This document shows, piece by piece, positions 767-50,728 of a stretch of DNA of 52,543 nt. The translations under genes and the position numbers were made by a program. The notes below the pieces were generated by a model that saw nothing but the letters and a program-made list of their open reading frames with translations, was not told where the DNA came from and did no database searches. Source of the stretch: Robiginitalea sp. (lineage in GTDB: Bacteria > Bacteroidota > Bacteroidia > Flavobacteriales > Flavobacteriaceae); assembly GCA_024642005.1 (NCBI GenBank), contig JAHECA010000025.1:1-52543 (forward strand), given 5' to 3'. Each line of letters opens with the position of its first letter. The stretch's first letter is position 1.

Positions 767-810
767 GTAACCGATGTTACTGACCCCGGCAACCCCCCTG
801 CCTACTTTTG
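767..810 (+). promoter_or_regulatory. Promoter of RND operon 1 with a Crp/Fnr-like dyad
   Basis: A perfect dyad GTAAC-CGAT-GTTAC occupies 767-780. After exactly 22 nt comes TACTTTTG (803-810), a full match to the Bacteroidota -7 consensus TAnnTTTG. The implied transcription start (about 815) falls after the possible ATG at 774 and before the ATG at 834, which fixes the gene start at 834. The dyad centre lies 29.5 bp upstream of the -7 box, the same geometry as three other promoters in this window. The half-site resembles the TTAAC-N4-GTTAA type of the Crp/Fnr family, so activation by such a regulator is inferred. Confidence 0.65.
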
Positions 811-833
811 CCCTGAATTTAATACCAAACACT

Positions 834-2159
834 ATGATTCGATTCCGCTGCCTCGCCGTCTTGCTACTGGCAGGGGCTCCATTCGGATGGGCACAGGAAG
901 TTTCCCTCGGTCGGGAAGACCTACGAAGCCGGATACTGGAAGCCAATACCGATCTGAAAATCTCAGAGGCCGCCTACCGGCAGGCCCAGGGAGAATACCA
1001 GCAAACCAATGCCATCTTTTTGCCGAACATCACTGCTTCGCATACGGCCATGGTAACCACAAACCCCTTGATGGCCTTCGGTTCCAAGCTGAACCAGGGT
1101 ATTTTAACCCCGGCCGATTTTGACCCGGCCCTGCTCAATAATCCCGATCGCACCGAAAATTTTGCCACCCGGCTCGAAGTGAGCCAGCCACTGTTGAACC
1201 TGGACGGTTTTTACCAGCGTCGGGCCGCGCGCTTTAAAATGCAGGCAGCCGACCTGCAAAGCGAAAGGCGCCGCGATTACCTGAACCTGGAATCTGAGCA
1301 GGCTTTCATGCAACTGCAATTGGCCCACAAAGGGGTACAGGTGCTTGAAAAGGCCCTGGAAGCCGCCCGGGCCAACCAGAAACTGGCCGAGAGCAACTTT
1401 CGCCAGGGCTATCTGCAAAAATCGGATGTGCTGGCCGTAAACGTGCGGGTTACGGAGGTGGAAAACCAACTGCGAACGGCCCGAAGCCAGGTGGCCAATA
1501 CCTCGAATTACCTCTCCTTTTTGATGAACGAAACCCCGGGAGCCACCTACCTGCCCACTGACAGCCTGATGCCCCAGCCGGCCCCTGATACCAACCCCCT
1601 GCGCGTCTCGGAAGAACGGGCCGACATCCAGGCCATGGCCGATGCCGCACTGGCTCGGAAAAATGTACTCTCGGCCGATAAGATGTCTTTCCTGCCCCGG
1701 CTGAACGCCTTTGGCTCATACGAGCTCTACGACGACCAGCTCTTTCAATTCGGCGCCTCGGGCTATACGGTGGGCGCTCAGCTGAGCTGGAATATCCTGG
1801 ACGGCAGCAAGCGCTTCGGGAAGGCCCAAAGCAGCCAGGCCGCCTACGACCAGGCCCTGCTGGAGCAGGAACAATACCTGGCCCAGAGCCGCCTGGAACT
1901 CGAACGCGCCAAACGCTCCTTTGCCGACGCCCGCGGGAAACTGGAAATGACCGCCCTGGCCCGGGAACAATCGCGCGAGGCCCTGCGCATCCGCACCAAC
2001 CGCTTCAGGGAGGGCCTGGAGAAAACATCCGACCTGCTGGTTGCGGAAACCTCCCTGGCGCAGAAAGAACTGGAATACTACCAAACGGTGTTCGAGCACA
2101 ACTACGCCCTGGCCTACCTGGAATTCCTGTCGGTGCAATCCGAAAATCAAACCCCTTAA
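834..2159 (+). CDS. TolC-family outer-membrane efflux channel (RND operon 1)
   Basis: Outer-membrane exit duct of a tripartite efflux pump, 441 aa from ATG 834. The in-frame ATG at 774 is rejected because a perfect -7 box lies between the two starts and because the signal peptide (RFRCLAVLLLAGAPFGWAQ) starts right after the second Met. The body shows the two-fold repeated TolC/OEP pattern: long Ala/Gln/Glu-rich helices (for example around LEKALEAARANQKLAESNFRQG), a strand segment, then a second helical repeat ending LEFLSVQ. It is a Sec-exported protein rather than a lipoprotein. The adaptor gene follows after 27 nt, so one operon. The pump substrate is unknown. Confidence 0.9.
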   Translation: MIRFRCLAVLLLAGAPFGWAQEVSLGREDLRSRILEANTDLKISEAAYRQAQGEYQQTNAIFLPNITASHTAMVTTNPLMAFGSKLNQGILTPADFDPALLNNPDRTENFATRLEVSQPLLNLDGFYQRRAARFKMQAADLQSERRRDYLNLESEQAFMQLQLAHKGVQVLEKALEAARANQKLAESNFRQGYLQKSDVLAVNVRVTEVENQLRTARSQVANTSNYLSFLMNETPGATYLPTDSLMPQPAPDTNPLRVSEERADIQAMADAALARKNVLSADKMSFLPRLNAFGSYELYDDQLFQFGASGYTVGAQLSWNILDGSKRFGKAQSSQAAYDQALLEQEQYLAQSRLELERAKRSFADARGKLEMTALAREQSREALRIRTNRFREGLEKTSDLLVAETSLAQKELEYYQTVFEHNYALAYLEFLSVQSENQTP

Positions 2160-2186
2160 ACCTAAAAAACAGAAAACCGCAATAGC

Positions 2187-3266
2187 ATGAAAGCAATATA
2201 TACCTTCCCACTTGTACTCACAGCCCTCTTTTTGGGCAGCTGCGGGGGCGACTCCAAGGAAACCGCCGGCAGCCAGAACCCGGTGGCCGTAGCAGTTCGC
2301 ATCGCTGGCGGGGCTACTGACGGGTCTTCTTTTAACGCCAGCGGGCGGGTCGAAGCGGCCCAACAGGTCACCCTGGGAACCCGCAGCATGGGTTATGTGC
2401 GCCAGATCCATGTGAAGGTGGGCGAAAAGGTTGCCAAAGGCCAGCTTTTGGTGAGCCTCGACAATGCCGACCTGCAGGCCAAACTGGCCCAGGCAGCCGC
2501 TTCCATCACCGAGGCAGAGGTCGCCTATACCAATGCTGATAAGGACTACGAGCGCTACCAGGCCCTCTTTGCCGACCAGAGCGCCACCCAGAAAGAACTC
2601 GACGATATGACTGCCCGCTATCGCATGGCTCGGGCCCGGCTTGAAGCCGCCCGGCAGATGCGCAACGAGGTGGAGGCCCAGTTCGCCTATGCCCGCATCA
2701 AAGCCCCCTTTGCAGGGGTGGTAACCAACACCTTTGCCGAAGAAGGAGACCTGGCCAGCCCGGGCCAGCCCCTGGTGGCCGTAGAGGCTCCGGGCCGCTT
2801 CGAGGTAAAGGCCCAGATACCTGAAAATGTGATCAGCCAGGTGGCCGAGGGTGACCCGGCCGAGGTATGGGTCAAGACCCTGGGCAAAAAGCTGAAAGGG
2901 TCGGTGAGCGAGCTGAGTACCTCGGCGCGCAATACGGGCGGACAATACCAGGCCACCATAAGCCTTGAAGAAACCGACAAAGAGCTGCGCTCGGGCATGT
3001 ACGCCACGCTGATCTTCCAGCGCAAGGCCGGTTCGGCCCCCGCCGACACCCTGCTCTTACTACCTGCCGAAGCGCTGGTGCAACGGGGGCAACTCAGCGG
3101 GGTATTTACCGTGAGCCAGAGCAATACAGCCCTGCTGCGCTGGCTCCGGATCGGCCGCACGTACGGCGACCAGGTAGAGGTGCTTTCCGGGCTCCGCCCA
3201 GGGGAAACCTACGTATACTCAGCCACTGGCAAACTGTACAACGGGGCGCCGCTCCAAATCCAGTAA
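2187..3266 (+). CDS. RND efflux periplasmic adaptor (MFP) lipoprotein (operon 1)
   Basis: 359 aa membrane-fusion protein that joins the inner-membrane RND pump to the outer-membrane channel. The N-terminus has a lipoprotein signal with lipobox LGSC (Cys near residue 19). The family layout is visible: a beta-barrel/lipoyl half (VRQIHVKVGEKVAKGQLLVSLDNADLQ, about 65-95), an alpha-helical hairpin (about 95-165, Ala/Glu/Arg-rich), the second lipoyl half (ARIKAPFAGVVTNTFAEEGDLASPGQPL, about 168-200), then beta-barrel and membrane-proximal domains. It sits 27 nt after the channel gene and 15 nt before the pump gene, so the three are co-transcribed. Confidence 0.92.
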   Translation: MKAIYTFPLVLTALFLGSCGGDSKETAGSQNPVAVAVRIAGGATDGSSFNASGRVEAAQQVTLGTRSMGYVRQIHVKVGEKVAKGQLLVSLDNADLQAKLAQAAASITEAEVAYTNADKDYERYQALFADQSATQKELDDMTARYRMARARLEAARQMRNEVEAQFAYARIKAPFAGVVTNTFAEEGDLASPGQPLVAVEAPGRFEVKAQIPENVISQVAEGDPAEVWVKTLGKKLKGSVSELSTSARNTGGQYQATISLEETDKELRSGMYATLIFQRKAGSAPADTLLLLPAEALVQRGQLSGVFTVSQSNTALLRWLRIGRTYGDQVEVLSGLRPGETYVYSATGKLYNGAPLQIQ

Positions 3267-3281
3267 ACTAAATACAAACCG

Positions 3282-6200
3282 ATGAAAGAAGGATTAGCCG
3301 GTAAAATAGCCAAGGGGTTTATCGACTCCAAGCTCACCGTCTTGCTGATGATCGTATTTATGGTTATCGGCGTATACAGCTCGTTTTTGATCCCACGGGA
3401 GGAAGAGCCCCAGATTGATGTGCCCATGGCCGACATTTTCGTGGGTTACCCGGGGGCCAGCCCCACCGAGGTGGAATCGCGCGTGGTCAAACCCCTGGAG
3501 AAGCTCATCTCCAACATCCCCGGGGTCGAATATGTGTATTCCACATCGATGGACGAACAGGCGATGGTTATTGTCCAGTTCTACGTGGGACAAGACATCG
3601 AGCGCTCGTTTGTGAAGCTCTACAACGAGATCAACAAACATATGGACCGCATGCCCCAGGGGGTTACCTTCCCCCTGGTGAAAACCCGGGCCATCGACGA
3701 CGTGCCCATGCTGGGCATTACCCTCTGGAGCGACGCATACGACGATTACCAGCTCAGGCAGCTCTCCGAGCAGCTCACCGACGAGATCGAAAAGGTGGGC
3801 GACGTGTCCATTACCAAAAAGATCGGGGGCCGCGAGCGCCAGCTGCGGGTAGTCCTCGACAAAGACAAAATGGCGGCGAGCGGGCTCGACTTATTGTCGG
3901 TGGCCCAGCGCATCCAGGCCAGCAATGCCCAGCTGGGCTCGGGCAGCTTCGACCAGGCCGATACCGAATACCTGGTAAAAACCGGCAGCTTCCTCAAATC
4001 GGCTGAAGATGTGGAAAACCTGGTGGTCGGGGCTCAGGACGGGCTGCCAATCTACCTCCGGCAGATCGCCCAGGTGCTCGATGGGCCCGAACAGCCCAAT
4101 GAGTACGTATCGCTCGGGTTCGGCGGGGCCAGCGCCCAGACCCAGTTGTACCCGGCTGAATACCCGGCGGTAACCATCTCAGTGGCCAAGCGCAAAGGCG
4201 CCGACGCCATGAAGATTTCCGACCTGATCCTGGCCAAGGTGGAACACCTGAAAAAAGACCTCATCCCCGATGAGGTGCATGTGGAAGTTACCCGGAACTA
4301 CGGGGAAACGGCCTCACAGAAAGTATCCGAATTGCTCATGCACCTGATCGGCGCGATATTGGCGGTTACCCTGGTGGTGATGCTGGCCATGGGCTGGAGG
4401 GGCGGCCTGGTGGTATTCCTCTCGGTGCCCGTCACCTTCGCCCTGACCCTGCTCAGCTACTACATGCTCGACTACACCCTGAACCGGATAACCCTGTTCG
4501 CCCTGGTGTTTGTGACGGGGATTGTGGTAGACGACTCCATCATTATTGCCGAGAACATGCACCGCCACTTCAAGATGAAGCGGCTGCCCTTTAAACAAGC
4601 GGCCCTGTACGCCATAAACGAGGTGGGGAACCCCACCATCCTGGCCACCTTTACGGTAATCGCCTCGGTGCTGCCCATGGCCTTCGTCTCGGGGCTCATG
4701 GGGCCCTATATGTCGCCCATGCCCATTGGGGCGTCCATCGCCATGATGCTTTCCCTGTTTGTGGCCCTGACCATTACCCCTTACCTGGGGTACCTCTTCC
4801 TGCGCGAAAAGGAGAAAAAGGGCAAACCGGCCAAGGTGCACCCTGCCGTGGAAGATACCTTTATCTACCGCTGGTACGACCGCCTGGAACGGCCCCTGCT
4901 CGAGAACCGCAAGAAGCGCTACATCTTTTTGGGCATCAACCTATTCCTGTTGGTCGGTTCGGTAATGCTGTTCTTTACCAAGTCGGTGCTGGTTAAAATG
5001 CTGCCCTTCGACAACAAGAACGAATTCCAGGTGGTTATCGACATGCCCGAGGGCACCACCCTGGAACGCACCTCGGCCGTGTCGCGCGAAATCGGGCAGT
5101 ACCTGCGTACCCAGCCCGAGGTGGTGAATTACCAGGCCTATGTGGGTACCTCTGCCCCCATCACCTTCAACGGCCTGGTACGCCACTACGACCTGAGGGG
5201 CGGCAGCAACATGGCCGACATACAGGTGAACCTCACCGACAAGCACAACCGCTCCGAGCAGAGCCACGACCTGGCCAAGGCCATGCGGCCGGGCATCCAG
5301 AAAATCGCTGCCGTCTACGGGGCCAACGTGAAGCTGGTAGAAGTGCCCCCTGGCCCGCCCGTGCTATCGACCATCGTGGCTGAGATTTACGGCCCCGACT
5401 ACGATGGGCAGATTGCCCTGGCCGACCAGGTTTCGGGCCTGCTCCGTTCGACCACCGACGTGGTCGACGTAGACTGGATGGTCGAAGCCGACCAGACCGA
5501 GTACAATTTTGTGGTCGACAAGGAAAAGGCCATGCGCTTCGGCCTGGCGCCCCGGCAACTGGTCCAGACCATGAACATGGCCCTCTCGGAGCACCCGGTT
5601 ACCGCCCTCTATGACGAAAACGCCTCGGAGCAGGTGGGGCTGGTGCTGGGCCTTTCCGAGGCCGAAAAGTCATCGGTTTCCGACCTGGCCCAAATACACG
5701 TCCGCTCCGAGCAGGGGCAGATGCTCCCCATAGGCGATTTCGTGTCGGTAGAACCGGTTACACGGGCCAAGAGCATCTACCGCAAGAACCAGAAACGGGT
5801 GGTTTATGTGATGGCCGACATGGCCGGGGAGCTGGAAAGCCCGGTCTACGCCATCCTGGGCATGGAAGACCGCCTGAAAGGCCTGGCGTTGCCCACCGGG
5901 TATAAGCTGGAAGAACAATACATGCACCAACCCGATTACGAAGACGACTACACCGTTAAATGGGATGGGGAATGGCAGGTTACCCTGGAGGTATTCCGCG
6001 ACCTGGGCCTCGCCTTTGCGGGGGTTATCGTAATCATCTATATGCTTATCGTGGGCTGGTTCCAGAATTTCAAAGCCCCTGTGGTGATGATGGTGGCCAT
6101 TCCGCTGTCGCTGGTGGGCATCGTGCTGGGCCACTGGATGCTGGGCGCCTTCTTTACGGCCACTTCCTTCATCGGGATGATTGCCCTGGCGGGGATCATG

Positions 6201-6482
6201 GTGCGGAACTCCGTGCTGCTGATCGACTTCATCAACCTGCGAATGGACGAAGGCATCCCGCTGAAACAAGCCGTAATCGAGGCCGGTGCCGTGCGTACCA
6301 CGCCCATCCTGCTCACGGCAGGCACCGTGGTAATCGGGGCCTTCGTGATTTTGTTCGACCCCATTTTCCAGGGGCTGGCCATCTCCCTGATGGGAGGGAC
6401 CATTGCCTCCACCATCCTCACCCTCTTGGTGGTTCCCCTGGTGTATTACAGTATCGAAAAGAAAAAACACCGCAATGAATAA
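3282..6482 (+). CDS. RND efflux transporter, AcrB/AcrD/AcrF superfamily (operon 1)
   Basis: 1066 aa inner-membrane proton-driven efflux pump of normal family length. A first membrane helix (about 15-35) is followed by a large periplasmic porter loop, a helix bundle around 345-520, a second large loop and a final helix bundle (about 860-1055). The proton-relay pair in helix 4 is intact as D417-D418 in the motif GIVVDDSII. The helix-10 position normally occupied by Lys in AcrB reads VRNSVLLIDF here, as in non-drug branches of the superfamily, so the substrate class stays open. The next gene starts inside its stop (ATGAATAA overlap), pointing to translational coupling. Confidence 0.93.
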   Translation: MKEGLAGKIAKGFIDSKLTVLLMIVFMVIGVYSSFLIPREEEPQIDVPMADIFVGYPGASPTEVESRVVKPLEKLISNIPGVEYVYSTSMDEQAMVIVQFYVGQDIERSFVKLYNEINKHMDRMPQGVTFPLVKTRAIDDVPMLGITLWSDAYDDYQLRQLSEQLTDEIEKVGDVSITKKIGGRERQLRVVLDKDKMAASGLDLLSVAQRIQASNAQLGSGSFDQADTEYLVKTGSFLKSAEDVENLVVGAQDGLPIYLRQIAQVLDGPEQPNEYVSLGFGGASAQTQLYPAEYPAVTISVAKRKGADAMKISDLILAKVEHLKKDLIPDEVHVEVTRNYGETASQKVSELLMHLIGAILAVTLVVMLAMGWRGGLVVFLSVPVTFALTLLSYYMLDYTLNRITLFALVFVTGIVVDDSIIIAENMHRHFKMKRLPFKQAALYAINEVGNPTILATFTVIASVLPMAFVSGLMGPYMSPMPIGASIAMMLSLFVALTITPYLGYLFLREKEKKGKPAKVHPAVEDTFIYRWYDRLERPLLENRKKRYIFLGINLFLLVGSVMLFFTKSVLVKMLPFDNKNEFQVVIDMPEGTTLERTSAVSREIGQYLRTQPEVVNYQAYVGTSAPITFNGLVRHYDLRGGSNMADIQVNLTDKHNRSEQSHDLAKAMRPGIQKIAAVYGANVKLVEVPPGPPVLSTIVAEIYGPDYDGQIALADQVSGLLRSTTDVVDVDWMVEADQTEYNFVVDKEKAMRFGLAPRQLVQTMNMALSEHPVTALYDENASEQVGLVLGLSEAEKSSVSDLAQIHVRSEQGQMLPIGDFVSVEPVTRAKSIYRKNQKRVVYVMADMAGELESPVYAILGMEDRLKGLALPTGYKLEEQYMHQPDYEDDYTVKWDGEWQVTLEVFRDLGLAFAGVIVIIYMLIVGWFQNFKAPVVMMVAIPLSLVGIVLGHWMLGAFFTATSFIGMIALAGIMVRNSVLLIDFINLRMDEGIPLKQAVIEAGAVRTTPILLTAGTVVIGAFVILFDPIFQGLAISLMGGTIASTILTLLVVPLVYYSIEKKKHRNE

Positions 6483-6881: not shown

Positions 6882-6925
6882 CTGATAATTATCAGAAGTT
6901 GGGCATCGAATAATCCCCAATTTTG
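6882..6925 (+). promoter_or_regulatory. Porin promoter with an FNR-like palindrome
   Basis: CTGATAATTATCAG (6882-6895) is a perfect 14-bp palindrome with the core TGAT-N4-ATCA. Exactly 22 nt later lies CAATTTTG (6918-6925), a 7/8 match to the -7 consensus. The same core and spacing occur at 42324 and 43395 in front of nos-locus genes. Activation by an FNR/DNR-type regulator is inferred. Confidence 0.65.
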
Positions 6926-6947: not shown

Positions 6948-8381
6948 ATGCAGAACCTCAGCATACCGGGCCGGTTACTACTCCTGGGAATCTTCCTCCT
7001 GGGCCCGCGCCCATCCCTACAGGGGCAACACCACGACGCAGATTCCATACTAAAACAGAGCATCCTGGAAAGCGAGCGCGAAGGATCGCACGGCACAATT
7101 GCGCGTGCCAAGGACTTTTTCGCCTACGGGACCATTACGGGGCATTTGCGGAACTATTTCATGAGCACCTTCAACAGGGGCGACCTGACCGATTACTACG
7201 CCAATGCCATAGGGGGAACCATGGGGTTCCGTTCGCCCGACTTTTACGGATTTGAATTCGGCACTGCCGGGATTTTCACCTACAAGGCGTTTTCATCTGA
7301 CCTGAACAAGGTTGACCCGGCCACTGGTGAAGTAGCCTTTTGGGAGCACGAACTGTTCGACGTAATCGACACCGACAATTTTAACGACCTCGACCGCCTG
7401 GAGTCGCTTTACCTCCGCTACAGTTTCAGCAAGGGGTATATCACCTACGGCAAGATGGAGATTGAAGACACTCCCCTTATGAACCGGTCAGACCAGCGGA
7501 TGAACGCCTTTTCCTTCAAGGGGATTTGGTTGCATTACGCCCTGGACGAAAACAACCGCTTCCACTTTACCTGGATCGACCGGATCTCGCCCCGGGGCGT
7601 GGTAGAATGGGTCGATTTCCATGAGGGCATAGGCCTGAGCGACCAGGGTTTCCAGCCCGATGGAACCGAAGCCGACTATTTTGAGCATGTCGATTCAGAC
7701 GGGCTGGCCATGCTCGGATACCTGGGCCAGCGCCACAACTTCAGCCTGCAATTTTACCAGTGGTACCTCGACAACCTTTCCTACACTTCATGGCTGGGCC
7801 TGGAATACCGCAAAGCCAACTGGAGCCTGGGTTTGCAGGGAGTGCTCCAGTTCCCGGACGCCCACCAGAGAGACCTGGAATACGACCAGCGCTACATTCA
7901 GCCGGGGGAGCATGGGCAGGTGCTCAGCGGGCAGGTGAAGTACGATGCCGCCGACTGGCACCTCAGGGCCGCTTTTACGGAGGTGTTCAAAGGGGGGCGC
8001 TTCCTGTTCCCCCGTGAACTGGGCCGCGACAATTTCTATACCTCCCTCCCCCGTTCCCGCCTGGAGGGGTTCGGCGACACGCACGTGTTAACCCTGGGGG
8101 GGGAATATGTCCTTACCCGCGACGGCCTTACGGCCGGGCTCGACTACACCCGCCTCTGGGGCCCGCAGACCGGTACCTTTACCTACAACAAATACGACCT
8201 GGATGCCTACTGGCAGGTGAATGCGCGTCTGCACTACGCCTTTGGCCACTTTTTCGACGGCCTGAGCATCGACATGCTGTACGTGTATAAGCAAAACAGG
8301 AACGACACCTCGCCCGGGGCAATTTTCAACCGCAGCAACTACCACCAGTTTAACCTGGTAACCACCTTTGTCTTCAATTAG
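6948..8381 (+). CDS. OprD-like outer-membrane porin
   Basis: 477 aa with an N-terminal signal peptide (hydrophobic stretch LLLLGIFLLG, then cleavage near LQGQ). After a short linker it shows NYFMSTFNRGDLTDYYANA and later alternating amphipathic strands with many aromatic ends, finishing NLVTTFVFN, as expected of an outer-membrane barrel whose last residue is aromatic or near so. The N-terminal pattern is that of OprD-family porins, which admit small solutes. It has its own promoter after a terminator, so it is not part of the efflux operon. The promoter shares an FNR-like site with the nos locus, suggesting a role under low oxygen. The solute is unknown. Confidence 0.75.
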   Translation: MQNLSIPGRLLLLGIFLLGPRPSLQGQHHDADSILKQSILESEREGSHGTIARAKDFFAYGTITGHLRNYFMSTFNRGDLTDYYANAIGGTMGFRSPDFYGFEFGTAGIFTYKAFSSDLNKVDPATGEVAFWEHELFDVIDTDNFNDLDRLESLYLRYSFSKGYITYGKMEIEDTPLMNRSDQRMNAFSFKGIWLHYALDENNRFHFTWIDRISPRGVVEWVDFHEGIGLSDQGFQPDGTEADYFEHVDSDGLAMLGYLGQRHNFSLQFYQWYLDNLSYTSWLGLEYRKANWSLGLQGVLQFPDAHQRDLEYDQRYIQPGEHGQVLSGQVKYDAADWHLRAAFTEVFKGGRFLFPRELGRDNFYTSLPRSRLEGFGDTHVLTLGGEYVLTRDGLTAGLDYTRLWGPQTGTFTYNKYDLDAYWQVNARLHYAFGHFFDGLSIDMLYVYKQNRNDTSPGAIFNRSNYHQFNLVTTFVFN

Positions 8382-42323: not shown

Positions 42324-42367
42324 ATGAGGAATATCAGGCTGTGGGCAACAATTTGGGCCTATATTTG
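42324..42367 (+). promoter_or_regulatory. Promoter of cytochrome c no. 1 with an FNR-like dyad
   Basis: ATGAG-GAAT-ATCAG (42324-42337) matches TGAT-N4-ATCA with one mismatch. After 22 nt follows TATATTTG (42360-42367), a full match to TAnnTTTG; the ATG is at 42390. Geometry is identical to the nos operon promoter. Confidence 0.62.
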
Positions 42368-42389: not shown

Positions 42390-42896
42390 ATGCGATATAG
42401 TATCCTTTTTGCCTCCCTCCTGTTGACCGTGCTGGCCGTGGGATGCCGGGAAAAGGTAGAAACCAGCGGGGAGGGCTTTTCTGTGAACCGGCGCAGCGCC
42501 AAACCGGCAGCCGAAGCCCCTGCGCCCCTAACGGGCACCCCTGCCTCACAAAGGGTAGACCTGGTTTCCAAGGGAGTGGGGCCTGTAACGTCCATGGAGC
42601 TACCCGATGCCCTGAACGCAGACCTCCTGGCCAAAGGAGAGCGGTACTACAACCGCCTGTGCGTGGCCTGCCACCGCATCGGGAAAAAATCCATCGGCCC
42701 GGCGCTCAATGGCATTCTTGCCCGCCGCAGCCCCGAATGGATCATGAACATGACTATGAAGCCGGAAGAAATGGTCAAAAAGGACCCCCTTGCGCGCGAC
42801 CTGCTGCAAGAATACGATGGCTCCCCAATGGCCAACCAGGGCCTGAGCCGCGACCAGGCGCGGGCCATCCTGGAATACCTGCGTACCCTGAAATAA
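42390..42896 (+). CDS. Lipoprotein cytochrome c no. 1 (nos locus)
   Basis: 168 aa monohaem cytochrome. A lipoprotein signal ends VLAVGC (Cys19). A Pro/Ala-rich linker (about 20-55) leads to a class I haem domain with C91-V-A-C94-H95 and a candidate axial Met in GSPMANQGL (about 144-152). It is a near relative of the cytochrome at 43461, with the same length, linker and ending (AILEYLRTLK). It is likely an electron donor to NosZ on the periplasmic side. It has its own promoter with the same FNR-like architecture as the nos operon and is convergent with the Rrf2 gene. Confidence 0.88.
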   Translation: MRYSILFASLLLTVLAVGCREKVETSGEGFSVNRRSAKPAAEAPAPLTGTPASQRVDLVSKGVGPVTSMELPDALNADLLAKGERYYNRLCVACHRIGKKSIGPALNGILARRSPEWIMNMTMKPEEMVKKDPLARDLLQEYDGSPMANQGLSRDQARAILEYLRTLK

Positions 42897-42911: not shown

Positions 42912-43343
42912 TCAAAGTGGAAAAATCGGGTGCTTTTCGGGAATGCCGTCCACCAGCGATGCCAGGGTGGTAGCTTCGAGCGCCTTGTTGAAGGCCATCT
43001 TGCTGGGGCCCAACAGGTGGTGCATGACACAAGGGTTATCGGTATCGCAGCTGCTGATCCCCAAAACGCAGGCATTGACAGCATCTTCCCCCTCTATGAC
43101 TTTTACCACATCCATGAGGGTGCGTCTCCTGTTCTCCTTACTGAGGTAAAAGCCTCCCCCACGGCCCTTGGCTGAAGAGATGACGCCATGCCTGGACAAG
43201 TCCTGGAGCAATTTGGCCAGGTACGACTCCGATACGCTTACCTCCGTGTGCATGTCGCGTACCAGAATCCGGTTCTGGTCATCGGTTTTCAGGGCCAGGT
43301 ATATTACAGCCTTAATGGCGTATTTGGCAGATTTAGTAATCAT
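42912..43343 (-). CDS. Rrf2-family regulator with three Cys (putative Fe-S, NO or redox sensor)
   Basis: 143 aa from ATG 43343 (MITKSAKYAIKAVIYL is the classic Rrf2 start; the frame extends upstream to 43367). A winged helix covers about 1-80 (VSVSESYLAKLLQDLSRHGVISSAKGRGGGFYL). The ligand loop is ACVLGISSCDTDNPC, spacing C-x6-C-x5-C, close to NsrR/IscR proteins that hold an iron-sulfur cluster. NsrR-type members sense nitric oxide, which fits its place inside a denitrification locus. It is divergent from the nos operon. A dyad overlapping its own -7 box suggests autorepression. Confidence 0.88.
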   Translation of the reverse strand: MITKSAKYAIKAVIYLALKTDDQNRILVRDMHTEVSVSESYLAKLLQDLSRHGVISSAKGRGGGFYLSKENRRRTLMDVVKVIEGEDAVNACVLGISSCDTDNPCVMHHLLGPSKMAFNKALEATTLASLVDGIPEKHPIFPL

Positions 43344-43372
43344 TTGGTACGTCAAAAACAAATCCAAAGATC

Positions 43373-43392
43373 AAAAGATATTTTTATCCTTT
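43373..43392 (-). promoter_or_regulatory. Rrf2 promoter overlapped by a GATA-N4-TATC dyad
   Basis: AAAAGATA-TTTT-TATCCTTT (43373-43392) is a dyad with 7 of 8 matching pairs. Its left arm on the minus strand, TATCTTTT, is a 7/8 match to TAnnTTTG, 30 nt before the ATG at 43343. It is a candidate binding site for the Rrf2 protein itself. Confidence 0.5.
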
Positions 43393-43394
43393 GT

Positions 43395-43438
43395 ATGATT
43401 TTTATCATGTTTTAGGCGTGGTGTCCCCGTTACTTTTG
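43395..43438 (+). promoter_or_regulatory. nos operon promoter with an FNR-like dyad
   Basis: ATGAT-TTTT-ATCAT (43395-43408) is a perfect dyad. After 22 nt follows TACTTTTG (43431-43438), a full match to TAnnTTTG; the ATG is at 43461. With a start near 43443 the dyad is centred near -41.5, the class II position for FNR-type activators. Confidence 0.7.
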
Positions 43439-43460: not shown

Positions 43461-43970
43461 ATGAAACGAATCTTTAGATACACCACCCTGGCCCTGTCTG
43501 TACTCGCCCTGAGTTGCGGCGGCAAGGAAGAGAAGAAATCGGACGGTTTCCAGATGGAGCGCAAGGGCGCTGCCACGCCAACCGAGACACCAGCGGCCCA
43601 GCCTGCCACCACTCCCCCCTCAAAACGGGTAGACCTCGCCAATAAAGGCGTAGGCCCGGTGAGTGCTGTAACCCTGCCGGCTGAAATCGATACGGAACTG
43701 GCCGCAACCGGGGAAGCTGTTTACAACCAGATGTGCCTGGCCTGCCACCGGATAGGCCAGAAATTTATCGGCCCTGCCCCGAATGGCGTGCTCGAGCGCC
43801 GCTCTCCGGAGTGGGTCATGAACATGATCCTGAACCCGGAGCGCATGGTTCAGGAAGACCCCCTGGCCAAAGAGCTGCTGATGGAATTCAACGGCTCCCC
43901 AATGGCCAACCAGGGCCTGACCGAAGACCAGGCCCGGGCAGTACTCGAATACTTCCGAACCTTAAAATAA
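43461..43970 (+). CDS. Lipoprotein cytochrome c no. 2 (first gene of nos operon)
   Basis: 169 aa paralogue of the cytochrome at 42390. The lipobox is LALSC (Cys near 18), followed by a Lys/Glu-rich then Pro/Thr/Ala-rich linker and the haem motif C92-L-A-C95-H96. GSPMANQGL supplies a likely axial Met, and the end is AVLEYFRTLK. A 28-base block around GSPMANQGL (43893-43920) is identical to the first gene (42819-42846). As the first gene of the nos operon, 6 nt before the fasciclin gene, it probably delivers electrons to NosZ. Confidence 0.88.
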   Translation: MKRIFRYTTLALSVLALSCGGKEEKKSDGFQMERKGAATPTETPAAQPATTPPSKRVDLANKGVGPVSAVTLPAEIDTELAATGEAVYNQMCLACHRIGQKFIGPAPNGVLERRSPEWVMNMILNPERMVQEDPLAKELLMEFNGSPMANQGLTEDQARAVLEYFRTLK

Positions 43971-43976
43971 CACCCT

Positions 43977-44561
43977 ATGAAAACAATCCCTCAACTGAAA
44001 ACCATGCTGGGCCTGCTGGCCATGCTGCTCTGGATTAGTGCCTGCAAACAGGGCCCTCAATCTGAAGGCACCTCGGGCCAGGAGTCCCAGGCTTCTGAAA
44101 CCCCAGCCAAGACTTCGGGCCAGGCCTTCATAGAAGGCGATGTGGGCAAGCCCAATGTTTTGCAGATCGCCATCGGTTCACCCGACCACTCCACCCTGGT
44201 GGCAGCCGTGCAGGCAGCCGACCTGGAGAATGCCCTGGTCAATGCCGGACCGCTCATGGTTTTTGCGCCGACCAATGAGGCTTTCGCCGCCCTTCCCGAA
44301 GGCACGGTGGAAAACCTGCTGAAACCCGAAAACAAGGACGCCCTGGCGAACATTTTAAAATACCATGTTACCCCGGGCAACTACAGCAAGGAATTTTTGA
44401 AGAAGTTCAAGAAACTCGGGCAGGCCAATAACCAGGATGTGCTAATTGAAGTAAAAGGCGACGACGTATTTGTGGGCGGCGCCAAGATTCTGGCCAGCGT
44501 ACCGGCCGGCAACGGCATTGTGCATGTGATCGACAAGGTAATGCTGCCGCCCTCTGAATAG
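43977..44561 (+). CDS. Fasciclin-domain lipoprotein of the nos operon
   Basis: 194 aa. A lipoprotein signal ends LWISAC (Cys about 23), followed by a Ser/Thr/Glu-rich linker. A single fasciclin domain spans about 65-192: the H1-type motif MVFAPTNEAFAALPEGTVENLL and the H2 end ILASVPAGNGIVHVIDKVMLPP. Fasciclin domains usually mediate adhesion or protein contact. Here the gene sits between a cytochrome c and nosZ, so it may hold these electron-transfer partners together at the membrane; that role is inference. The next gene (nosZ) starts 31 nt downstream. Confidence 0.88.
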   Translation: MKTIPQLKTMLGLLAMLLWISACKQGPQSEGTSGQESQASETPAKTSGQAFIEGDVGKPNVLQIAIGSPDHSTLVAAVQAADLENALVNAGPLMVFAPTNEAFAALPEGTVENLLKPENKDALANILKYHVTPGNYSKEFLKKFKKLGQANNQDVLIEVKGDDVFVGGAKILASVPAGNGIVHVIDKVMLPPSE

Positions 44562-44592: not shown

Positions 44593-46548
44593 ATGAAAAA
44601 AACAATCTATTCTTTCCTGGCCCTGTTTACGCTGGCATCTTTCTTTTTTGCCTGCGGGGAAGGCCAGCAGGGTTCCAACGGAGCCCTTACCTCCAATGCC
44701 GCCGAACGCGTGTATGTGGCACCGGGGGAACACGACGAGTTTTACGCCTTTATCTCGGGCGGGTTCAGCGGGCAACTATCCGTTTACGGGTTACCTTCCG
44801 GCCGGCTGTTCAAGGTAATCCCCGTTTTCTCTCAGGATGCTGAAAAAGCCTGGGGGTACAACGAGGAAACCAAGCCCATGCTGAACACTTCCCACGGTTT
44901 TGTGCCCTGGGACGACTCGCACCACCCGGATATTTCTCAAACCAATGGCGAACTGGACGGCAGGTATGTTTTCATCAACGGGAACAATACCCCCCGTATC
45001 GCCAAGATAGACCTCAGCGTCTTTGAGACCACTGAAATCATCGAGATCCCGAACAGCGCCGGGAACCACAGCTCGGCCTTTGTGACCGAAAACACCGAAT
45101 ACGTGGTGGCCGGAACCCGTTTCTCCGTGCCGGTACCCCAACGGGATATGCCCATTAACGAGTACAAGGGGAACTTCAAAGGAGCCCTGACGTTTATCAG
45201 CGTAGACCCCGAAGACGGTGGCATGAACATCAAATTTCAGCTGATCATGCCGGGCTTTGACTACGACCTTTCCCACCCGGGCCGCGGTGCATCGCACGGC
45301 TGGTTCTTCTTCACCACTTACAACTCTGAGGAAGCCAATTCGCTCCTGGAGGTTAACGCCTCACAGAACGACAAAGACTTCATCGCCGCAGTGAACTGGA
45401 AAAAGATCGAGGAATTCGTGAACAATGGCGGCGGCACCAAAATGCCGGCCAACTATGCGCACAACGTGTACGACGACAACACCCATATGGCCACTTCGAC
45501 CATGGAAAAAGAGGTGTTGGTTGTGAACCCGGCCGAGGTACCCGGTGCCGTATACCTGCTGCCCACGCCCAAATCGCCCCACGGCTGCGATGTGGACCCC
45601 TCCGGCGAATACATCATCGGGGCAGGCAAACTCTCTGCCGACATTACCGTTCACTCCTTTACCAAAATGCTCGACGCCATCGAGAACCAGAAGTTTGACG
45701 GAGACGCCTACGGCATCCCGATTCTGAGCTTTGAAGACGTACGGGCCGGTACCGTTAGCCAGCCTGGCCTCGGCCCCCTCCATACCGAGTTCGACGGACA
45801 GGGCAATGCCTACACTACCTTCTTTATTTCGTCTGAAGTGGTGAAATGGAAACTCGGCACCTGGGAAGTGGTGGACCGCCAGCCCTGCTTCTACTCCGTA
45901 GGGCACCTGATGATTCCGGGAGGCAACTCCCGCAAGCCCTTCGGCAAGTACGTGGTGGCCATGAACAAGATCACCAAAGACCGCTACCTGCCCACCGGGC
46001 CTGAAGTAACCCAGTCTGCCCAGTTGTACGACATTTCGGGTGAAAAAATGGAATTGCTGCTCGACTTCCCGACCGTGGGCGAGCCCCACTATGCCGCCGG
46101 TATTGCCGCCGACATCGTTAAGGAGCGCTCCCGGAAGATTTTCGAATTGCAAAACAACAAGCACCCCTTTGCGGTTACCTCCGATGCCGATGCCCGGGTA
46201 GAGCGCAAGGGTAATGAGGTGCACATCTACATGACCATGATCCGCAGCCACTTCAACCCTGACAATATCGAGGGCGTGAAGGTGGGCGACAAGGTGTTCT
46301 TCCACGTGACCAACCTGGAACAGGATTACGACGTGCCCCACGGCATCAGCGTAATCGGTGCCAACACCTCCGAATTGCTGATTATGCCCGGCCAGACCGA
46401 AAGCTTTGTGTGGGAGCCCAAGCAACCGGGGGTATGGCCGTTCTACTGTACCGATTTCTGTTCGGCCCTCCACCAGGAAATGCAGGGATACATCCGCGTA
46501 TCGCCGGCCGCATCGGGTACTGAACTCAAATGGTCACTGGGCGAATAG
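44593..46548 (+). CDS. nosZ: Nitrous oxide reductase, clade II (Sec-type)
   Basis: 651 aa multicopper enzyme that reduces N2O to N2 in the periplasm. The signal is Sec-type (SFLALFTLASFFFAC) without twin arginines, with a Cys at 21 that could be lipidated. The CuZ beta-propeller His ligands are visible: H110-H111 in DDSHHPD, then RGASHGWFF, KSPHGCDVD, LGPLHTEFD. The C-terminal cupredoxin domain keeps the CuA site: H583 in DVPHGIS, then C619, C623, H627 and M630 in CTDFCSALHQEM. All copper ligands appear intact. It is third in the operon and is followed by a terminator-like hairpin. Confidence 0.97.
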   Translation: MKKTIYSFLALFTLASFFFACGEGQQGSNGALTSNAAERVYVAPGEHDEFYAFISGGFSGQLSVYGLPSGRLFKVIPVFSQDAEKAWGYNEETKPMLNTSHGFVPWDDSHHPDISQTNGELDGRYVFINGNNTPRIAKIDLSVFETTEIIEIPNSAGNHSSAFVTENTEYVVAGTRFSVPVPQRDMPINEYKGNFKGALTFISVDPEDGGMNIKFQLIMPGFDYDLSHPGRGASHGWFFFTTYNSEEANSLLEVNASQNDKDFIAAVNWKKIEEFVNNGGGTKMPANYAHNVYDDNTHMATSTMEKEVLVVNPAEVPGAVYLLPTPKSPHGCDVDPSGEYIIGAGKLSADITVHSFTKMLDAIENQKFDGDAYGIPILSFEDVRAGTVSQPGLGPLHTEFDGQGNAYTTFFISSEVVKWKLGTWEVVDRQPCFYSVGHLMIPGGNSRKPFGKYVVAMNKITKDRYLPTGPEVTQSAQLYDISGEKMELLLDFPTVGEPHYAAGIAADIVKERSRKIFELQNNKHPFAVTSDADARVERKGNEVHIYMTMIRSHFNPDNIEGVKVGDKVFFHVTNLEQDYDVPHGISVIGANTSELLIMPGQTESFVWEPKQPGVWPFYCTDFCSALHQEMQGYIRVSPAASGTELKWSLGE

Positions 46549-47232: not shown

Positions 47233-47664
47233 ATGATTCGCCTACTTGCTACCCTTGCCCTGTTCCTACTGGCGGCCTCCTGTAAAATTGCCCCTGATCC
47301 CATTGCCTTCGGCACGGATGCCTGCCATTTCTGCCACATGACCATCGTTGACCGGCAACATGCCAGCCAGCTGGTTACCGGCAAGGGCAAGGCATTTAAG
47401 TTCGATGCCGTGGAGTGCATGCTGTACCACCTGCAGGACGCCCCAGCCGACTCCAGGGCCCTTTACCTGGTGTCCGATTTCAACCAGCCGGGCACCCTTC
47501 TCGAGGCCGAAAATGCCTCCTACCTGATCAGTGAAAACCTCCCCAGCCCCATGGGGGCGTTCCTGACAGCCTTTGCTTCACAGCCCGACGGCCTGGAAGC
47601 CCAAGAGCAATATGGCGGAACCCTGTACGACTGGGCAGGCCTGCAAGAACACCTGAAACCCTGA
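47233..47664 (+). CDS. nosL: NosL-family copper chaperone lipoprotein
   Basis: 143 aa. A lipoprotein signal ends LLAASC (Cys17). The NosL metal-binding motif is C31-H-F-C34-H35-M36 (DACHFCHMTIVDRQ), followed by FKFDAVECMLYHL. NosL carries Cu(I) to NosZ in the periplasm. The segment also satisfies the C-x-x-C-H pattern used for covalent haem c, because His replaces the more usual residue before Met. Whether haem is attached is unknown. The stop is 4 nt before the cupin gene. Confidence 0.9.
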   Translation: MIRLLATLALFLLAASCKIAPDPIAFGTDACHFCHMTIVDRQHASQLVTGKGKAFKFDAVECMLYHLQDAPADSRALYLVSDFNQPGTLLEAENASYLISENLPSPMGAFLTAFASQPDGLEAQEQYGGTLYDWAGLQEHLKP

Positions 47665-48008: not shown

Positions 48009-49256
48009 ATGCATGCACTTCGCCTGACAGCCTGCATCTTCGGGATGCTCTTTTTTTGGACCAGCCGGGCCTCGACCTGGGTGGTGTGCCCCGACTGCGA
48101 GCTTTCCAGCATCCGGGAGGCCATTCAGCGGGCAGCACCCCACGATACCCTGCTGATAAAGGCCGGTACCTACCTCGAATACGACATCCGCATCGACAAA
48201 CCCCTGACGCTGCTGGGCCAGGACAGGCCGGTTATCGACGGGCAGAAGAAAGGGGAGATCGTTACCATTCTGGCCGACAGCGTTACCCTGGAAGGGCTGT
48301 CGATAAGGCATGTCGGGGTGAGCTATACCACCGATTACGCCGCGATCCGGGTAGTTAAGCGGAAGCACTTCCGCATTCGCGACATCGATATGGAAGACCT
48401 GTTTTTCGGGATCTACCTGGAAAAGGCTCAGCAAGGGGAAGTAACCGGCAACCGCATCAGGGGGCAGGCCCGGGAGGAATATAATTCCGGCAACGGCATC
48501 CAGCTTTGGTACTGCAAGGACGTGCAGGTGGGCGAAAATGAAGTCAGCGGGATGCGCGACGGCATCTACCTCGAATTTTCAGACCGCATCCGCATACAGA
48601 ACAACCGCAGCATGAACAACCTGCGCTACGGCCTGCACTTCATGTTCTCGAACGACGACTCCTATACCGGCAACCGTTTTGAATCGAACGGGGCCGGGGT
48701 GGCCGTGATGTTTTCCAAAAACATCAAGATGCAGGGCAACACCTTTCGCAAAAACTGGGGGACCGCCAGTTTCGGCCTGCTGCTGAAAGAGATCAACGAC
48801 GCTGAAATCTCGGGCAACACCTTTGAGGAGAATACCGTGGGGATCAGCATCGAAGGCTCGAACCGGATCGAGTACCTGCGCAACGATTTCGCGGGCAACG
48901 GGTGGGCTATCAAGGTACGGGGGGCCTGTTATGCGAACACCTTCCGGGCCAACAACTTTTTGAACAATTCTTTCGACCTGGCCTACAACAGCAAGGTGAA
49001 CGACAACCGTTTTGAACAAAACTACTGGAGCAACTACACGGGGTACGACCTCGACCGCGACGGGGTGGGCGATGTGCCCTACCGCCCGGTGAAGCTCTTT
49101 TCCTATATTGTGAACCGGACCCCCGAGACCATTGTGCTGCTGCGGAGTCTGTTCATGGAACTCATCGATTTTTCCGAAAAGGTTTCCCCGGTTTTCACCC
49201 CCGATAACCTGCAGGACGAACGCCCTTTAATGAAACGTGTACATGATCGAGGTTGA
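48009..49256 (+). CDS. nosD: NosD periplasmic copper-maturation protein
   Basis: 415 aa with N-terminal signal ACIFGMLFFWTSRAS. The body is a right-handed parallel beta-helix of CASH/NosD repeats: repeated short blocks such as GNRIRG, GIYLEFSDRIRIQNN, GLHFMFSNDDSYTGNRF, GNTFRKN and SGNTFEENTVGISIEGS, with Asn stacks. The end carries NYWSNYTGYDLDRDGVGDVPY, typical of NosD. It works with the NosFY transporter in building the CuZ centre of NosZ. The reading frame overlaps nosF by 14 nt. Confidence 0.93.
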   Translation: MHALRLTACIFGMLFFWTSRASTWVVCPDCELSSIREAIQRAAPHDTLLIKAGTYLEYDIRIDKPLTLLGQDRPVIDGQKKGEIVTILADSVTLEGLSIRHVGVSYTTDYAAIRVVKRKHFRIRDIDMEDLFFGIYLEKAQQGEVTGNRIRGQAREEYNSGNGIQLWYCKDVQVGENEVSGMRDGIYLEFSDRIRIQNNRSMNNLRYGLHFMFSNDDSYTGNRFESNGAGVAVMFSKNIKMQGNTFRKNWGTASFGLLLKEINDAEISGNTFEENTVGISIEGSNRIEYLRNDFAGNGWAIKVRGACYANTFRANNFLNNSFDLAYNSKVNDNRFEQNYWSNYTGYDLDRDGVGDVPYRPVKLFSYIVNRTPETIVLLRSLFMELIDFSEKVSPVFTPDNLQDERPLMKRVHDRG

Positions 49257-49953
49257 AAATCTGCATAAAAAATTTGGCAAGAATGCGGTGCTTACGGGCC
49301 TTTCCCTTAAAGTTGAGGGGGGCGGCATATACGCCGTTCTGGGCCCGAACGGCTCGGGCAAGACCACCCTTATCAAAAGCATTTTAGGCATGGTGGTGCC
49401 CGACCAGGGGCTCATCAGGGTAAATGGCCAACCTACGCACAGGAAATGGAAGTACCGGGAAGAGCTGAGTTACCTGCCGCAAATAGCCAATTTTCCGGGC
49501 AACCTGAGCGTGTCGGAATTACTGGACATGATTGTGGACCTGCGTCGCCAGCCGGCCCGGCAGCAGGAGCTCATTGCCGAATTCGGGCTGGAACCCTTCC
49601 TGAATAAAAAGCTGAGCAACCTTTCGGGCGGGACGCGGCAGAAGGTAAACCTGGCCCTCACCTTTATGTTCGACAGCCCGGTGTACATTCTGGACGAGCC
49701 GACCAACGGGCTGGACCCTGCCTCCCTGATCAGGCTGAAAGAGCGCATCCGCCTCGAGCAATCGCGCGGCAAGCTCTTTTTGGTGACCACGCACATCATG
49801 CAGTTCGTGGAAGAACTTGCAGACGAGGTAATTTACCTGCTCGAAGGAAAGATCTATTTTAAAGGCACCCTTGAAGCCCTTCGCCAACGCACAGGCCAAA
49901 ACGATGTGGAACACGCCATCGCGGCCATCTCAACCCAGGAACCCAATGCTTAA
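49243..49953 (+). CDS. nosF: NosF ABC transporter ATP-binding protein
   Basis: 236 aa from ATG 49243 (a GTG two codons earlier is less likely). Walker A is GPNGSGKTTL (about residues 34-43), the Q-loop is in YLPQIANFPG, the signature is LSGGTRQKVN, Walker B is VYILDEPTNGLD and the switch His is in VTTHIMQF. It energises the NosFY transporter that supports copper-sulfur centre assembly in NosZ. It overlaps nosD by 14 nt and nosY by 8 nt, indicating tight translational coupling. Confidence 0.95.
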   Translation: MIEVENLHKKFGKNAVLTGLSLKVEGGGIYAVLGPNGSGKTTLIKSILGMVVPDQGLIRVNGQPTHRKWKYREELSYLPQIANFPGNLSVSELLDMIVDLRRQPARQQELIAEFGLEPFLNKKLSNLSGGTRQKVNLALTFMFDSPVYILDEPTNGLDPASLIRLKERIRLEQSRGKLFLVTTHIMQFVEELADEVIYLLEGKIYFKGTLEALRQRTGQNDVEHAIAAISTQEPNA

Positions 49954-50728
49954 AATCTTAAAATACAGCTTTTACGACCTGATGCGCAGCCGGTGGAGCT
50001 ATGTTTATTTCCTGTTTTACCTGGCCCTTGGGTTTGTGCTGCTCTTCCTGAACAACGACCTCTCCAAGGCGGTTATCACCCTGATGAACATTATCGTGGT
50101 ACTGGTGCCCCTGATCGGCACCATTTTCGGGATCATGTACTACTACAATTCCCGGGAATTCACCGAGCTGCTGCTGGCCCTGCCGGTGCGTCGCTCGTCC
50201 ATTTTCCTGGGGCAGTATTTCGGGGTGGCCGGCTCCCTGTCCCTAAGCCTGTTGCTGGGCCTCGGCATCCCCTTTGCAGCCTACGGGCTGTTCCGCAGCG
50301 GCGCCGTCTGGGATTTTGGCCTGCTGCTGGTAACCGGTGCCTTCCTGACCCTTATTTTTACGGCCCTCTCGTTCAATATTGCCCTGGCCAATGAAAACCG
50401 CATCAAGGGATTTGGCTATGCAGTGCTGCTCTGGCTGCTGCTGGCCGTTATATACGACGGGCTCTTCCTGCTGTCGCTGATACTGCTTGAAGAATACCCC
50501 CTCGACAATTTTTCCCTGGCCGCCACCCTGCTCAACCCGGTCGACCTCTCCCGGACGCTTATTTTGCTCAAGTTGGATATTTCGGCCCTGATGGGCTATA
50601 CGGGGGCCGTTTTCAAGGAATTTTTCGGCACGCACATGGGGCTGCTGGTTTCCCTGGGCGCCCTGGTACTCTGGACCTGCCTCCCCATCTGGCGTCTTGC
50701 GGTGCGCTGCAGGAAGCAAGATTTTTAA
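49946..50728 (+). CDS. nosY: NosY ABC transporter permease
   Basis: 260 aa from ATG 49946, inside the nosF stop (AATGCTTAA). Six hydrophobic helices are recognisable, from YVYFLFYLALGFVLLFL near the start to LLVSLGALVLWTCLPIW at the end. IMYYYNSREFTELLLALPVRRSS is typical of ABC-2-type permeases such as NosY. It forms the membrane channel of NosFY and partners NosD. The next membrane-protein gene follows after 8 nt. Confidence 0.92.
   Translation: MLKILKYSFYDLMRSRWSYVYFLFYLALGFVLLFLNNDLSKAVITLMNIIVVLVPLIGTIFGIMYYYNSREFTELLLALPVRRSSIFLGQYFGVAGSLSLSLLLGLGIPFAAYGLFRSGAVWDFGLLLVTGAFLTLIFTALSFNIALANENRIKGFGYAVLLWLLLAVIYDGLFLLSLILLEEYPLDNFSLAATLLNPVDLSRTLILLKLDISALMGYTGAVFKEFFGTHMGLLVSLGALVLWTCLPIWRLAVRCRKQDF

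Follow-up and report, generated by a model that had tools for sequence, protein, structure and literature searches.

A conserved FNR-type promoter site joins nitrous oxide respiration and a porin in Robiginitalea and probably has two Crp/Fnr-family readers

Background

In Escherichia coli, FNR targets include HemN, OmpW, hydrogenase and respiratory genes, and in its class II promoters the bound site is centred at about -41.5. A glutamate and an arginine of the FNR/CRP recognition helix contact the TGA core of the site. In the Alphaproteobacteria, the iron-sulfur protein FnrN and the cluster-less FixK are described as recognising very similar sites, and FixK answers to the two-component pair FixL/FixJ (PMC4999443). 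Regarding nitrous oxide reductase, nosZ of Paracoccus denitrificans is reported to be under the control of FnrP and NNR (PMC3541799) and belongs to clade I (PMC11539149). Clade II N2O reducers are regarded as important for limiting the release of N2O, and in the Campylobacterota Crp/Fnr proteins (Wolinella Nss; Nitrosophilus labii) have been implicated in the control of their nosZ; the sites there are TTGA-N6-TCAA, and for N. labii, where they overlap the predicted nosZ start, negative control has been proposed (PMC11539149). Among the matches listed for the open-access literature, none dealt with FNR or REC-Crp control of nos, or with any other nos switch, in the Bacteroidota, which is weak evidence of absence. 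REC-Crp fusions are not mentioned in the available passages of PMC9239204, which deals with two-component and other signalling systems.

Here we analyse a contig of Robiginitalea sp. (Flavobacteriaceae; JAHECA010000025.1, assembly GCA_024642005.1), whose whole stretch of 52,543 nucleotides is called the window below. A first-pass annotation of the window had proposed that three promoters, those of a nos operon, a second cytochrome c and a porin, share an FNR-like control site. We give a probability of roughly 75% to the reading that these promoters, together with that of a divergent Rrf2-family gene, belong to a genome-wide low-oxygen regulon of class II architecture, most likely read by two Crp/Fnr-family proteins.

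Results and discussion

Composite promoters in the window

The three promoters had been described, at 6882, 42324 and 43395, as a dyad followed at a fixed gap by a TAnnTTTG-type -7 box, and the coordinates bear this out (Table 1). The gap from the 12-base core to the box is 23 nt in all three plus-strand promoters, which equals 22 nt when the 14-base dyad of the first-pass annotation is used. Its order of box scores has to be corrected: the 7/8 match belongs to the porin promoter (6918), and the order for 6882, 42324 and 43395 is 7/8, 8/8 and 8/8. The observation holds for all three promoters, and a fourth had been missed: read on the minus strand, the nos dyad has a 7/8 box at the identical distance of 23 nt, before the divergent Rrf2 gene. 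The dyad centre is 29.5 bp upstream of the -7 box in the sites counted, and because of this spacing the predicted position is -41.5, that of class II. The argument that identical spacing makes chance unlikely also holds, as the composite TGATN4ATCA-N23-TAnnTTTG, with at most one mismatch, has four occurrences in the window, and 100 dinucleotide-preserving shuffles gave none. The dyad alone is weaker evidence than the composite (24 matches at up to one mismatch versus 9.8 expected).

Table 1. Coordinates and assignments of the features discussed. Positions without prefix refer to the window; other features carry a genome and contig prefix or a locus number.
Feature	Position	Strand	Remarks
FNR-type dyad, porin promoter	6883..6894	+	core TGATAATTATCA
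-7 box, porin promoter	6918..6925	+	CAATTTTG, 7/8 match
Outer-membrane porin, probable distant OprD family relative	6948..8381	+	477 aa
FNR-type dyad, second cytochrome c promoter	42325..42336	+	core TGAGGAATATCA, 1 mismatch
-7 box, second cytochrome c promoter	42360..42367	+	TATATTTG, 8/8 match
Second cytochrome c, paralogue of nos cytochrome	42390..42896	+	PF00034
Rrf2-family regulator, three clustered cysteines	42912..43343	-	PF02082; TIGR00738 above cut-off
-7 box, Rrf2 promoter	43365..43372	-	GATCTTTG, 7/8 match, 23 nt from nos dyad
20-bp inverted repeat, candidate operator	43373..43392	.	AAAAGAT-N6-ATCCTTT, just upstream of nos dyad
FNR-type dyad, nos promoter, common to divergent Rrf2 promoter	43396..43407	+	core TGATTTTTATCA
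-7 box, nos promoter	43431..43438	+	TACTTTTG, 8/8 match
nos cytochrome c, first gene of nos operon	43461..43970	+	PF00034
Fasciclin-domain protein	43977..44561	+	PF02469
nosZ, Sec-dependent nitrous-oxide reductase	44593..46548	+	TIGR04246, 946 bits, cut-off 625
NosL	47233..47664	+	PF05573
NosD	48009..49256	+	PF05048
NosF-type ABC ATPase	49237..49953	+	PF00005
NosY-type ABC membrane protein	49871..50728	+	PF13346/PF12679, weak, below cut-off
FNR-like protein	G000:C9:226210-226896	-	229 aa; divergent from CcoI-type gene, beside CcoN
REC-Crp fusion	G000:C21:27837-28904	+	356 aa; REC, cNMP_binding and HTH_Crp_2 in one protein
PEPCK_ATP	L004		Pfam
Radical-SAM protein, read as HemN	L005		Pfam
OmpW	L008		Pfam
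Multihaem cytochrome	L009		Pfam
Ribonucleotide reductase	L010		Pfam
POR-type oxidoreductase / 4Fe-4S ferredoxin, divergent pair, one common dyad	L012, L013		Pfam
TauE	L014		Pfam
[NiFe] hydrogenase small subunit / HypA, divergent pair	L113, L119		Pfam
CcoI-type metal ATPase, cbb3 cluster	L114		Pfam
COX1/CcoN, cbb3 cluster	L115		Pfam; small ORF between site and CcoN
c-type cytochrome	L116		Pfam
FadL-type protein	L120		Pfam
Usp	L122		Pfam
CBS	L123		Pfam
RseC	L128		Pfam

Conservation of the nos promoter

The reductase of the window matches TIGR04246, which we take to be the model of clade II NosZ. Up to 4.5 kb upstream of nosZ were compared in 51 relatives and the own locus (52 stretches). The TGATN4ATCA composite at exactly 23 nt is found in 42 of these, a count taken anywhere on the nos strand of the stretch and including a few places far from nos (G095, G119); the 26 other spacings between 10 and 36 nt gave 0-3 matches each. 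When the search is limited to the nos promoter region and to the form TGAY/RTCA at one mismatch or fewer, 45 of the 52 loci retain the site, the seven without it being G075 (where the contig ends), G086, G112, G091, G095, G031 and G140. In 47 aligned nos promoters TGA and TCA are present throughout, and position 4 is T or C in 45; this alignment was taken at up to two mismatches, so that the invariance of the core is partly selected. The outer bases fall outside the searched positions and are A before the dyad (44/47) and T after it (47/47), not T...A. The same 47 promoters have a T-rich stretch at +14 to +17. Regarding the second cytochrome c, it is 54-56% identical to the nos cytochrome and represents a local duplicate; the own locus is the only one of the 52 upstream stretches to show two copies.

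A further element of the nos promoter is the inverted repeat, which in the own locus lies between the nos dyad and the -7 box of Rrf2. At up to two mismatches and within 60 nt upstream, it was found in 31 of the 47 nos promoters, 28 of them at an offset of 23-24 nt from the dyad, and it is strong in the genus. An Rrf2 gene is present in 25 of the 52 upstream stretches; of the 31 repeat-bearing promoters, 18 adjoin such a gene and 13 lack an adjacent one. The repeat suggests a further regulatory input at nos, and our guess is that the Rrf2 protein is its ligand. Given the location of the repeat between dyad and -7 box, bound Rrf2 could shut off its own gene and make contact with the nos activator. 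A genome-wide Rrf2 regulon working through the repeat is not supported: the own genome has 11 repeat matches versus 17 with the reversed pattern, and the 10 genomes of the genus together show no excess (182 repeat matches versus 216 controls). As to the protein itself, its translation has the cysteines spaced C-x6-C-x5-C and it scores below the NsrR, IscR and RirA cut-offs; the spacing differs from those of NsrR and IscR.

The porin and its promoter

Close orthologues of the porin were identified in G009, G001, G005 and G007 (57-61% identity). A site with the same spacing, in the TGAY/RTCA form, precedes all four, with one mismatch in G009, G001 and G005 and two in G007, and, as in the window, a possible start codon follows some 60-65 nt downstream. 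In the own genome and in G009, G001 and G005 it is at its first T that the -7 box departs from the consensus (xAnnTTTG). At 11 more distant homologous porin loci no site was found at two mismatches. The description of the protein as OprD-like, made in the first-pass annotation, has gained indirect support: the window porin alone gave no family match in Pfam and other family searches, four of nine aligned proteins reach PF03573 (OprD) with an E value of 0.5 or lower (6.1e-12 for the best of them), and the porin profile matches the OpdP porin 3syb at E 9e-4.

Directly before the porin, at 774-6482, is a CusCBA/CzcCBA-like efflux set with outer membrane factor, HlyD and AcrB families. There may be a metal link to the copper-dependent NosZ.

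Genome-wide distribution of the site

The first-pass annotation had asked whether the composite, searched genome-wide, precedes respiratory genes, and would have been refuted by many random matches unconnected with gene starts. In the 3.44-Mb own genome, TGATN4ATCA-N23-TAnnTTTG with at most one mismatch occurs at 18 places, and the reversed-pattern controls gave 0. When the spacer was left free between 8 and 38 nt (31 spacings) and TANNTTT was demanded exactly, ten exact matches were obtained, six of them at 23 nt, with 0 reversed controls. The nos sites of relatives suggested a wider consensus, TGAYWWWWRTCAT-N22-TANNTTTG, which at two mismatches gives 33 sites in the own genome versus one control. 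At one mismatch it yields 1390 sites versus 82 with the reversed pattern in 149 genomes (own included), and within the own family (90 genomes) 1243 versus 55.

Combining the composite scan (18 sites) with the wider consensus (19 further sites), and leaving out C74:6803, which had no locus, 37 own-genome sites were placed against gene starts, defined as the ATG, on the same strand, of an ORF 90 codons or longer. An ORF start lies 43-250 nt downstream in 31 of the 37, versus 9.9% of random positions in the same loci. With this result and the reversed-pattern controls the site passes the refutation test. In one of the loci (L016) the ORF counted is an overlapping frame, and the cytochrome start at 65 nt is also in range. 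The six misses are L003, L006, L008, L011, L130 and L131; L006 (Usp) and L008 (OmpW) fail because the first start of their ORF precedes the range used.

Pfam was run on 20 proteins downstream of own-genome sites. Many of the genes are respiratory or anaerobic (Table 1). No Pfam family was obtained for the proteins downstream of L117, L121 and L018, and the genes after the sites of L002, L003, L007 and L011 have no obvious anaerobic role; these four sites may be chance matches. The divergent pairs L113/L119 (hydrogenase small subunit and hypA) and L012/L013 (KorA-type oxidoreductase and ferredoxin) have one dyad per pair, from which a 23-nt spacer leads to a -7-like box in either direction.

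Two candidate regulators

A single Crp/Fnr protein encoded elsewhere in the genome had been predicted to act at these sites. Such a protein exists, but the likely regulators are two. The own genome has six cNMP-binding matches. It encodes an FNR-like protein with PF00027, PF13545 and PF00325 above cut-off, that is, a cNMP-type sensor fold and a Crp-type HTH. The curated Fnr model NF008365 is its best match, yet at 101.8 bits it stays below the cut-off of 228. E. coli FNR has its cysteine ligands at positions 20, 23, 29 and 122. In an alignment with FNR structures, C5, C8 and C107 match the cysteines of three ligand positions, and there is no Cys at the third N-terminal one. In the best 30 FNR-like orthologues C5, C8, C54 and C107 are all Cys (30/30). 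C54 may be the replacement fourth cluster ligand, and the protein presumably senses oxygen through an iron-sulfur cluster. At E 1e-30 or better, 87 of the 149 genomes have an FNR-like match, a class set by this threshold only, which takes in distant homologues of 33-36% identity (G040, G045, G060, G084).

The other candidate is the REC-Crp fusion, whose gene overlaps the end of a histidine kinase gene just upstream; this kinase has several PAS domains and one GAF domain. The phospho-acceptor set D9, D52 and K104 is invariant in seven of seven aligned fusions, and REC-Crps do not conserve the C54 and C107 positions of the FNR-like protein. The motif of the recognition helix is E[ST]-x-IR in 28 of the best 30 FNR-like proteins and in all 30 REC-Crps examined; in its longer form it is GTATES-x-IR in 28/30 of the former and ATE[ST]-x-IR in 23/30 of the latter. 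As both helices keep the same glutamate and arginine, one box could serve both proteins. REC-Crp matches at E 1e-50 or better occur in 42 of the 149 genomes. The kinase and fusion genes lie in a block (L111, C21:24000-36576), annotated by eye, near acetate kinase, phosphotransacetylase-like and universal stress genes, an apparent block of anaerobic metabolism.

Beyond the family, we analysed the best 80 of at least 581 named-genome stretches that encode some relative of the fusion, among which there may be other receivers. Bacteroidota names are borne by 77 of the best 80, and of the other three, two are metagenome bins with the labels Delta- and Alphaproteobacteria and the third is an unnamed bacterium. 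The best two matches in named genomes are Flavobacteriaceae, including Allomuricauda, which we assign to that family. Many of the 80 loci are incomplete; 78 have a kinase core just upstream, CcoN is nearby in 21, HemN in seven and NosZ in four, and the composite box occurs 37 times in these loci versus 0 reversed controls.

Co-occurrence of regulators and sites

The number of sites per genome follows the regulators present. The 28 genomes with both have a median of 18 sites, and 27 of them have at least seven. With the FNR-like protein only (59 genomes) the median is 7, with at least seven sites in 31 and fewer in 28; with REC-Crp only (14 genomes of 14 different genera, one of which, G008, at 74% completeness, could be missing its FNR gene) it is 12, each having 7-22; with neither (48 genomes) it is 0, and one genome reaches seven. 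The contrast between the REC-only genomes and those with neither is strong (Fisher p 5e-13, ignoring shared ancestry). Within the own family, where 14 of the 90 genomes examined have REC-Crp without an FNR-like match, these 14 stand against 14 with neither, 13 of which have 0-3 sites (Mann-Whitney p 1e-4, again ignoring shared ancestry). The nos box is likewise present in 21 of 21 genomes with both regulators, in 10 of 11 REC-only and in 14 of 20 FNR-only. Comparing the nos motif of FNR-only and REC-only genomes gave no clear difference; the R position is G in 4/14 versus 6/10, too few to use. Two genomes depart from the trend. G057 (82% complete) has 30 sites and neither regulator, its best match being a 228-aa Crp with a different helix, so that either sequence is missing or there is a third reader. 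G019 has a 233-aa Crp/Fnr homologue (32% identical) and no sites.

Proposed mechanism and alternatives

We propose that Crp/Fnr-family activators would bind A-TGAY-WWWW-RTCA-T about 41.5 bp upstream of the predicted start, and that the bound activator would recruit RNA polymerase at the Bacteroidota TAnnTTTG promoter by class II activation. One reader would be the FNR-like protein encoded beside the cbb3 oxidase genes, presumably answering to oxygen; the other would be the REC-Crp fusion, which the multi-PAS histidine kinase from the adjoining upstream gene would phosphorylate. The fusion may take the place of FNR, by analogy with FixLJ-FixK in rhizobia. The first-pass finding was right and somewhat understated: the regulon is widely conserved and of FNR type, and two alternative readers are most likely. 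A broader proposal seems to us about evenly poised between true and false. It holds that low-oxygen respiration in the Bacteroidota, clade II N2O reduction included, uses one promoter grammar, read interchangeably by an FNR variant with a moved ligand (C-x2-C-x45-C-x52-C, from the N-terminal loop to the sensor barrel) and by a kinase/REC-Crp pair that would be a collapsed FixLJ-FixK.

The most serious alternative, which we nevertheless consider improbable, is that the FNR-like protein alone uses the box and that REC-Crp has another binding target and simply accompanies an anaerobic way of life. The FNR-like gene does adjoin cbb3 genes, and this protein alone goes with at least seven sites in 31 of 59 genomes; however, all 14 REC-Crp genomes without an FNR-like match keep their sites, the box is kept in all but one of the 11 nos promoters of REC-only genomes, and the recognition helices of the two proteins are alike. 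Less probable again is that nos is chiefly under the divergent Rrf2 protein, with the FNR-type box secondary there. The fixed distance of the inverted repeat upstream of the box, its strength in the genus and the Rrf2 gene in nearly half (25/52) of the nos upstream stretches fit this idea, but 45 of 52 nos loci retain the box, 31 of 47 promoters have the repeat at up to two mismatches, 13 of them without adjacent Rrf2, and the repeat is not enriched genome-wide.

It is very unlikely that the nos and porin sites are really controlled by another Crp/Fnr paralogue of the own genome, encoded on C59 or C3. The six cNMP-binding matches leave room for it, but the helix of the C59 protein is different (SSRVVISR) and no HTH_Crp_2 match was obtained for the cNMP-binding protein of C3. 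It is hardly credible at all that chance in AT-rich intergenic DNA accounts for the sites: the dyad alone is indeed frequent, but the fixed-spacing composite is absent from every shuffle and the wider consensus exceeds its control many times over (1390 versus 82). Shuffles and reversed-pattern controls rule out chance for the site set as a whole; single weak sites may be chance.

Comparison with known systems

The box, the spacing rule and two named regulator genes make the proposal directly testable and provide a simple pattern for predicting low-oxygen genes in the phylum. The proposal bears on how flavobacteria turn on the removal of the greenhouse gas N2O, and, if true, the exchange of REC-Crp and FNR would be an example of oxygen control rewired around unchanged target sites.

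Compared with the Campylobacterota, the site described here is different and has a conserved, predicted upstream activator position. Paracoccus denitrificans likewise places nosZ under an oxygen-type Fnr, and its second Crp/Fnr-type regulator answers to NO; we know of no REC fusion in its nosZ control. The class II FNR promoters of E. coli likewise combine a TGAT-N4-ATCA core, a centre at about -41.5 (here predicted) and a Crp/Fnr protein, and their targets resemble the predicted ones here (HemN, OmpW, hydrogenase and respiratory genes). In contrast to the E. coli box TTGAT-N4-ATCAA, the outer bases here are A...T instead of T...A and either T or C stands at position 4; the promoter is of the Bacteroidota TAnnTTTG type, and the protein lacks the Cys29 position and has the conserved Cys54 instead. 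Regarding FixL-FixJ-FixK, a kinase core stands upstream in 78 of the best 80 loci, and separate FixJ and FixK are absent, one 356-aa fusion being present instead. Unlike FixLJ-FixK, the Bacteroidota have receiver and Crp/Fnr in one polypeptide, with no FixJ-to-fixK transcription step. Overall, the arrangement looks like the FnrN/FixK logic of the Alphaproteobacteria with receiver and Crp/Fnr joined.
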